Part shown: positions 37,592 through 39,461 of the stretch, piece by piece
Numbering within the stretch: position 1 is the stretch's first letter
Layout: each line of letters starts with the position of its first letter
Assembly (NCBI GenBank): GCA_035995165.1
Contig: DASYKU010000005.1
Coordinates: 1-64,000, forward strand
Direction: 5' to 3'
DNA from: Mycobacteriales bacterium
GTDB lineage: Bacteria; Actinomycetota; Actinomycetes; Mycobacteriales; CADCTP01
DNA: 64,000 bases
Translations under genes and position numbers: made by a program
Notes under the pieces: model-generated
The model's input: only the letters and a program-made list of their open reading frames with translations
Database searches by the model: none
Told to the model about the DNA's origin: nothing

Positions 37592-37953
37592 CAGCCCACC
37601 GCCCCGAGGGAGACCGTCGCGTGGACGCCCATCGCATCGGTGTGCAACCGCAGCGGCTGCGGGCCGGCGATGTCCAGCACGAGGTCGTAACCGGCCGGCA
37701 GCTGGGCCAGCAGGTCGGCGCCGCTCATCGAGAACCAGCCGACGGTGCCGCGGGCGAGGGCGAGCTGTTCGACCGAACTGAAGACGGGAACGACCCCGGC
37801 GTGCGGAACGCCGAGCGCCCGGAACCCCGGGTCGGCACCCCGCTCGCAGTAGATCGTGGCCGCGAGGAAGACCTCGTGCAGCCGGGCAGAGTCGGCGACA
37901 CCGGACGCGACGTCGCGCGCGGTGTCGGCAAGACTCGGTGCATGTGCAAGCAC
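37591..37953 (-). CDS. SseB-like domain protein (short)
   Basis: 120 residues from GTG 37953. Single SseB-N-like domain: SARLHEVFLAATIYCERGA, PVFSSVEQLALARGTVGWFSMSGADLLAQLP and GYDLVLDIAGPQPLRL. It opens the four-gene group SseB-like, WXG100-like, T7SS substrate, SseB, all overlapping or nearly so. Start is uncertain; upstream in-frame alternatives run into the divergent chelatase promoter. Confidence 0.75.
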   Translation of the reverse strand: MLAHAPSLADTARDVASGVADSARLHEVFLAATIYCERGADPGFRALGVPHAGVVPVFSSVEQLALARGTVGWFSMSGADLLAQLPAGYDLVLDIAGPQPLRLHTDAMGVHATVSLGAVG

Positions 37954-38015
37954 GTGTCCAGCATAGGGGGTGGGACATAAAAAGCAAAGGGGGCAGAGCG
38001 TACGAATGGGACGTC

Positions 38016-38705
38016 TTGCTCGCCGTGGTCCACGGAACCCGGAACCCGGCTGGCGTTCACTCGGTGTTGCAGATTGTTGACGCTCTGCGCACAAGATGTC
38101 CAGCCCTGGATGTTCGACCGGCGTTCATCGAGCTGGCTGAGCCGGACGTCCGGACCGCGCTCGCAGCCATCCCAACGCACCGGCGGGCGGTGTTGGTGCC
38201 ACTGCTGCTCGCCTCCGGTTACCACGATCGGGTGGATCTGCCCGCGGCGATCGCGGCCGGCCGCCCCGGGACGGCCCACGCCGCCGTCCTCGGACCCGAC
38301 CCGCTGCTCGCGGTCGCGCTGGCCGACCGGCTGGACGAGGCCGGCCACCGACCCGGCGACACGGTGGTGCTCGCCGCCGCCGGCTCCTCCGACCCGGCCG
38401 CCGTCGCGTCCGTCCACGAGCAGGGCCGCCTCCTGTCCATCGAACTGACCCGACGCTCGGGAGTACGGACAGAGGTGACCACGGGGTTCGGTTCGACCGC
38501 ACAACCGGACGTGGCCGAAGCGGTCGCGGCGGCGCGCCGGGCGGCCGACAGCTCCCGGGTTGCGATCGCGACCTATCTCCTGGCGCCGGGCACCTTCGCC
38601 GACCGGCTGGCCACGGCCGGCGCGGACGTGGTCGCGGCGCCACTGGTCGCCCACCCCGCGGTCCTGGAGCTGATCCTGCGCCGCGCCTCGTCAACCAAAG
38701 GTTGA
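38016..38705 (+). CDS. Sirohydrochlorin chelatase-like (CbiX) protein
   Basis: 229 residues from TTG 38016 (the family N-terminus LLAVVHGTRNPAG begins here; start uncertain, no good ribosome site). Two half-domains of the CbiX/SirB type: VVHGTRNPAGV with the metal His, VRPAFIELAEPD, VLVPLLLASGYHDRVDLP with the second metal His, and VAIATYLLAPGTFADRL. Such enzymes insert Co or Fe/Ni into sirohydrochlorin for B12 or sirohaem. Its stop codon lies inside the first operator palindrome of the next gene. Confidence 0.82.
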   Translation: MLAVVHGTRNPAGVHSVLQIVDALRTRCPALDVRPAFIELAEPDVRTALAAIPTHRRAVLVPLLLASGYHDRVDLPAAIAAGRPGTAHAAVLGPDPLLAVALADRLDEAGHRPGDTVVLAAAGSSDPAAVASVHEQGRLLSIELTRRSGVRTEVTTGFGSTAQPDVAEAVAAARRAADSSRVAIATYLLAPGTFADRLATAGADVVAAPLVAHPAVLELILRRASSTKG

Positions 38706-38735
38706 CGGCCGGCGGATCGTCAACCTAACGTTGAC
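38690..38735. promoter_or_regulatory. Two palindromic operators GTCAAC-N5-GTTGAC
   Basis: First site 38690-38706 (GTCAACCAAAGGTTGAC, fully palindromic apart from the centre) overlaps the stop of the chelatase gene; second site 38719-38735 (GTCAACCTAACGTTGAC) ends three bases before the ATG of the Clp_N-HTH gene. Centres are 29 bases apart, nearly three helical turns, so dimers would bind the same face. I infer autoregulation by the downstream helix-turn-helix protein. Confidence 0.8.
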
Positions 38736-38738
38736 CGC

Positions 38739-39461
38739 ATGACGGACCCCGCCCCCGTACGGCTCGACGACCTCATCGCGGTCGTCCGGGCTCAGCATCC
38801 CGACGGCGACCCGCTCGCCTCCCTCTCCGACGCGGTGCTCGTCGCCGACCAGCTCGGCGACGTGGCCGACCACCTCGTCGGCCACTTCGTCGACCAGGCC
38901 CGCCGGGCCGGCGCCTCCTGGACCGACATCGGCCGCAGCATGGGCGTGACCAAGCAGGCCGCGCAGAAGCGGTTCGTGCCGCGCAGCTCGGACGTGGTGC
39001 CGGAGCTGGGCAACTGGGCCCGCTTCACCGACCGGGCCCGCAAGGCCGTGGCCGACACCGCCGGCCTGGCCCGGCAGACCGGGCACGACCAGGTCGAGCC
39101 CGGGCACCTGCTGCTCGGCCTGCTCGCCGACCCCCACAGCCTGGCCACCCGCACCGTCGCGGCCCAGGTGCCGGTGGCGGACCTGCGGGGCAGGACGCTC
39201 ACCGTGCTCGGCGAGGGCGGCGGCAGCCCCGACGGGCACATCCCGTTCTCGGCCGACACGCGCCGGCTGCTCGCCCTCACCCTGCGGGAGGCGCTCCGGC
39301 TCGGCCACAACTATGTCGGCACCGAGCACATCCTGCTCGGGCTGCTCACCGACGAGGGCGCGCTCGGCGCGATGCTGAGCGAGGCGGGGGTCACCCACGC
39401 CCGGACCGAGGAGCTGACCCTGGCGGCGCTGGCCGAGATCAAGCGCCGCCTGGAGGAGTAA
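38739..39461 (+). CDS. Clp_N repeat protein with helix-turn-helix
   Basis: 240 residues. The N-terminal ~80 residues hold a small helix-turn-helix, [20 protein letters not shown], preceded by a helical bundle. The remainder is two Clp N-terminal repeats ([22 protein letters not shown] ... and [20 protein letters not shown] with [10 protein letters not shown]), as in ClpC/ClpA substrate-binding domains. There is no AAA ATPase module. It may bind unfolded or phospho-Arg proteins and DNA, coupling protein stress to transcription. Two palindromes immediately upstream are likely its own operators. Confidence 0.88.

Follow-up and report, generated by a model that had tools for sequence, protein, structure and literature searches.

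The DNA analysed here (hereafter the window) is a 64,000-nucleotide stretch of contig DASYKU010000005.1 from a Mycobacteriales bacterium. It carries a chelatase gene and a gene for a 240-residue protein, with two palindromes, termed operators 1 and 2, upstream of the latter (Table 1). Pfam detects two Clp_N repeats in this protein (PF02861, E = 4.9e-20) and no AAA+ ATPase module. At its N-terminal end it matches the ClpC2 N-domain crystal structure (PDB 8ADA) both by sequence (E = 3.5e-23) and by fold (Foldseek E = 2.5e-5, prob 1.00), and its C-terminal 150 residues form a ClpC1-type N-domain (PDB 3WDB and 8AD9, E about 1e-26). The helix-turn-helix (HTH) region falls below the Pfam cut-offs, and in the AlphaFold model helices 61-68 and 72-79 are arranged as an HTH. 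The protein is thus, as a preliminary description made from the sequence had proposed, an HTH joined to two Clp_N repeats without an ATPase. On the strength of the match to 8ADA in one half and to the ClpC1-type N-domain in the other, the gene is assigned as clpC2, the orthologue of mycobacterial Rv2667; overall, its product shares about 50% identity with most other ClpC2 proteins. Residues D44 and R55 correspond to the D46-R57 dimer salt bridge of the Mycobacterium tuberculosis protein and are invariant in 110 sequences.

Table 1. Features of the clpC2 locus, in window coordinates
Feature	Position	Strand	Remarks
CbiX-type (sirohydrochlorin-like) chelatase gene	37938..38705	+	PF01903, E 2.5e-22; neighbour outside the system
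Operator 1, GTCAACCAAAGGTTGAC	38690..38706	.	Exact palindrome; paired site in 110/110 orthologue loci
Putative -35 element, TTGACG	38702..38707	+	Right arm of operator 1
Operator 2, GTCAACCTAACGTTGAC	38719..38735	.	Exact palindrome; paired site in 110/110 orthologue loci
Putative -10 element, TAACGT	38726..38731	+	Inside operator 2; 18 bp after the -35 element, 7 nt before ATG
clpC2 gene, 240 aa	38739..39461	+	Orthologue of Rv2667
N-terminal dimerisation and HTH domain, residues 9-79	38763..38975	+	Match to 8ADA
Predicted recognition helix, residues 72-79 (KQAAQKRF)	38952..38975	+	AlphaFold helix
C-terminal ClpC1-NTD-like domain, two Clp_N repeats, ligand-binding part	39012..39458	+	PF02861; matches 8AD9, 3WDC and 6CN8

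The two palindromes lie 29 bases apart, and the stop codon of the chelatase gene (TGA, 38703-38705) falls within the first of them, both as initially described. Three nucleotides separate the end of operator 2 from the ATG. When up to two mismatches were allowed, the operator motif matched the window 8 times, compared with 1.6 expected from shuffled sequences (0 of 100 shuffles reached 8), and operators 1 and 2 were the only exact matches. A generic sigma-70 scan gave no match under its consensus rule of 9/12 bases, which is stricter than the TTGACN/TANNNT pattern used for counting promoters in the orthologue loci. Since the putative -10 element is so close to the start codon, the clpC2 transcript is probably leaderless.

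The published ClpC2 system and its conservation

Mycobacterial ClpC2 has been shown by electrophoretic mobility shift assay to bind its own promoter, and it represses its own gene (Taylor et al. 2023, PMC10030653). The published operator, CGTCAAC-n5-GTTGACG, is located one to two nt ahead of the coding sequence, is often doubled and covers the -35 and -10 elements of a leaderless transcript; in the window, the base following operator 2 is C instead of G. Cyclomarin A hinders DNA binding by ClpC2 and relieves repression, and ClpC2 acts as a sponge that protects ClpC1, which itself binds DNA only weakly and non-specifically (PMC10030653).

Orthologous loci were selected by protein similarity, independently of the operator, and comprised 29 loci from the GTDB order Mycobacteriales, 80 from named genomes (Streptomyces, Micromonospora, Nocardia, Rhodococcus, Mycobacterium, Kutzneria and others) and the window itself, a few species being present in both sets. 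All 110 loci contain exactly two operator sites, both of them exact in 91, so that conservation of the palindromes upstream of orthologues, named beforehand as a test of the proposed role, was confirmed; a control with the reversed pattern gave matches in 4/110 loci. The sites are spaced by 28 bp in 76 loci and by 29 bp in 34, and the second site lies 2 nt (83 loci) or 3 nt (27 loci) from the ATG. In 108/110 loci, a TANNNT hexamer precedes the start codon by 6-7 nt, and each of these loci has, separated from it by a spacer of 17-18 bp, a -35 element sharing 5 or 6 of the 6 bases of TTGACA. The operator pair is also kept in most of the more distant relatives, with altered sites in loci L125 and L126.

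The window locus shares with Rv2667 of M. tuberculosis and with M. smegmatis ClpC2 (PDB 8ADA, 8AD9) the domain order, the dimer salt bridge, tandem operators over the -35 and -10 elements, the leaderless start and both arginines of the C-domain, but has different gene neighbours. The ClpC1 N-terminal domain is like the C-terminal half of the window protein in fold and sequence, whereas ClpC1 as a whole differs by its two AAA+ ATPase modules. Because operator, spacing, distance to the ATG and leaderless promoter agree with the published ones, the window gene is very probably a clpC2 working, like its mycobacterial orthologue, as a ligand-released autorepressor and sponge. In the unstressed cell, a ClpC2 dimer would occupy the two operators, covering the -35 element with operator 1 and the -10 element with operator 2, and would block RNA polymerase at its own leaderless promoter. 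The C-terminal domain, a copy of the ClpC1 domain that binds substrates and drugs, would capture ligands that otherwise reach ClpC1. Ligand-bound ClpC2 (the ligand shown in mycobacteria is cyclomarin A) would then leave the DNA and so turn the gene on, and the surplus ClpC2 would form a sponge shielding ClpC1P. By analogy with the mycobacterial protein, window ClpC2 would also be a sponge protecting ClpC1, beyond a role as sensor. An autoregulated repressor under two palindromes, as the preliminary description had inferred, is experimentally established for the mycobacterial orthologue (PMC10030653); its further claim that such a role had not been described is wrong, ClpC2 autorepression having been published in 2023. 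The main inference is correct and not new: the locus is an ordinary member of an already published system.

The ligand pocket has changed in this lineage. Phe2, Phe80 and Glu89 of ClpC1 are critical for cyclomarin (PMC10030653); at the equivalent positions, window ClpC2 keeps Phe80 (F170) and carries W93 and A179 for Phe2 and Glu89. The position equivalent to Glu89 is Glu in 102/110 sequences; Ala is confined to two of them, the window protein and that of the genus-mate (L010), which differ from mycobacterial ClpC2 both in this Ala for the cyclomarin-contact Glu and in Trp for Phe2. Given these two replacements, cyclomarin binding by window ClpC2 should not be assumed, and the inducing ligand in this lineage may differ from cyclomarin. 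The changed contacts are a feature of ligand specificity and no bar to membership in ClpC2.

Operator recognition and the scope of regulation

In the published account, contact with DNA was assigned to a C-terminal helix bearing R185 and R189, as the double substitution R185A/R189A reduces both DNA binding and repression in mycobacteria, and dimerisation was proposed as the sole role of the N-terminal domain (PMC10030653). The equivalent arginines, R183 and R187, are indeed kept in 109/110 and 108/110 loci. However, the N-domain crystal structure 8ADA covers residues 4-72 and hence ends just before the predicted recognition helix (residues 72-79), which is nearly invariant: residues 73, 74 and 76-79 do not vary at all in an alignment of 63 sequences. 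Moreover, the operator persists where a C-terminal arginine is lost, as in L062 (R183A) and, by hand alignments that are weak in places, in L127 (R187A) and L124 (R183E). Conversely, changed operators accompany changed recognition helices in L125 (SRQAVQKRY), L126 (SRQAAQQRY) and L195 (TRQAVQQRF), a few distant cases whose hand alignments are likewise weak in places. The operator layout is also retained in relatives whose HTH polypeptide has no Clp_N domain, with the half-site or spacer varying with the HTH (GTCARG in the type with a ClpX zinc-binding domain, an N4 spacer in the split type, both described below). Because operator changes track changes of the recognition helix and not loss of the C-terminal arginines, the comparison argues that the N-terminal HTH probably reads the operator bases, and recognition by the C-terminal Clp_N domain appears unlikely. 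The reduced binding of the double mutant indicates that the C-terminal domain contributes in some way to DNA binding.

The preliminary description further held that the repressor reads protein damage. This stands in part: heat induces mycobacterial clpC2 about twofold, ClpC2 at high micromolar concentration slows ClpC1-dependent casein degradation (PMC10030653), and a 2026 paper refers to unfolded proteins as inducing ligands, as background to work on cyclomarin (PMC12913811). The demonstrated inducer is nevertheless the antibiotic cyclomarin A, which targets ClpC1; ecumicin and ilamycin bind ClpC2 without triggering its induction (PMC12913811), and release of ClpC2 by phospho-arginine was found in neither of the two papers. 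A broader possibility, in which damaged or arginine-phosphorylated proteins are the signal and the window protein governs a wider proteostasis regulon, draws on this same heat response and casein effect and on the resemblance of the protein's C-domain to the N-domains through which ClpC binds substrates and phospho-arginine (5HBN is among the fold matches). Against it, no second operator before another gene was found in the 5.37 Mb genome, in which every site matching exactly or with one mismatch was examined. The genome holds three exact matches, namely operators 1 and 2 and a third site (C12:14372) inside a transporter-like ORF, and 18 one-mismatch sites, 15 of them inside high-GC3 ORFs; apart from operators 1 and 2, none is a convincing operator. 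A wider regulon was rejected on this survey, and the damage-sensing regulator of such a regulon is improbable. A heat-shock regulon of the CtsR, HspR or ClgR kind would have several operators; for the clpC2 motif, no second promoter operator was found, and the absence of other intact operators is consistent with pure autoregulation by ClpC2.

The palindromes might instead serve a different regulator or the chelatase gene (e.g. as a transcription end signal), with clpC2 merely downstream, but this reading is refuted almost beyond doubt: although operator 1 overlaps the chelatase stop codon, a chelatase adjoins clpC2 only in the genus-mate L010 (109 clpC2 loci searched), the two sites track clpC2 in every one of the 110 loci, and a search for a terminator-like site found none. 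A functional link between chelatase and clpC2 was also rejected, the neighbourhood being kept no further than the genus.

Relatives with other Clp recognition domains

A profile of the ClpC2 HTH was run over genomes of the class, and relatives were found in 267/395 of them. One group consists of proteins of ~125 residues, in which a ClpX C4 zinc finger (PF06689, E 6e-16 and 2e-17) is followed by an HTH containing ...QAAWERFSGED or ...RQSAWERFSGEE. The upstream regions of 29 such loci contain 44 exact 6-5-6 palindromes, compared with 1.7 in shuffled sequences (maximum 6), of the form GTCAAG/GTCAGG-N5-CTTGAC/CCTGAC and usually two per locus. The loci bearing QAAWERFSGED mirror clpC2 exactly, with the second site 3 nt before the ATG; in the remaining ones, a greater distance separates the sites from the likely start downstream. 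The combination of zinc finger and ClpC2-like HTH was seen at L202-L207, L218 and L223-L252, and in L201 (G403:C76) the two domains are swapped, the HTH preceding the ClpX zinc finger, and GACAACCTAATGTTGTC adjoins the start codon.

In a second, split type, with relatives in 136/297 genomes, an HTH gene of 65-70 codons ends only a few bases ahead of a Clp_N gene (23/28 loci, by a simple motif search). Two sites of the GTCAAY-N4-RTTGAC type, mostly 27-29 bp apart, lie 2-4 nt before the start in 27/28 loci. The genome of the window itself has such a system on the minus strand (C59:59501-58715, loci L253-L255; HTH 59501-59295, Clp_N 59293-58715), with the operators GTCAGGTTTACTTGAC and GTCAACGTACATTGAC and the start codon 3 nt past the second. 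The same genome also encodes a Clp_N-only protein of ~210 residues without an HTH (L007, contig C3). In L211, L215 and L219, the fusion partner of the same HTH is another cysteine-containing domain (CSCGW[TS]DRRR), and a single site of the GTCAGG...CCTGAC type precedes the start. L217 is a stand-alone HTH gene of <80 codons with two palindromic sites (GTCAATACCAGTTGAC, GTCAACCATAGTTGAC) before its start.

The RelI antitoxin (Rv2664, PDB 9SDC) has an HTH homologous to that of the window protein (E 1.9e-5), but it is a stand-alone antitoxin with RelS and lacks a Clp_N domain. Its authors found no inverted repeats upstream of RelI, and its relatives include fusions with DUF3887 and DUF2812, not with Clp domains (PMC13284704). 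A search of the available literature found no description of the fusion of ClpX zinc finger and HTH or of an autoregulated split HTH/Clp_N operon, which does not prove that there is none; the HTH/operator layout beside other protease recognition domains appears to be undescribed. Judging from these shared sequences and layouts, we lean slightly towards the view that ClpC2 may belong, as one branch among several, to a broader class of autorepressors in actinobacteria. In this class, one HTH family would be joined to Clp recognition domains (a fused ClpC N-domain, a separate Clp_N gene next to the HTH gene, or a fused ClpX zinc-binding domain), each under its own palindrome pair at a start-proximal promoter. 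Such proteins would detect and sequester ligands, toxins or adaptors that target ClpC or ClpX.

The present analysis extends the published ClpC2 work in three respects: the ligand pocket differs in this lineage, the HTH is the probable reader of the DNA, and there are relatives of a ClpX type and of a split type. The window gene adds a divergent ClpC2 with an altered drug pocket to the published system of resistance and sensing, and the pairs of operator and recognition helix make the DNA-reading domain of ClpC2 testable. If true, the wider pattern would be a rule by which actinobacteria protect several protease recognition domains with autoregulated decoys; it would predict antibiotics or phage proteins that target ClpX as well as ClpC1, and would make their ligands searchable with simple reporter strains.
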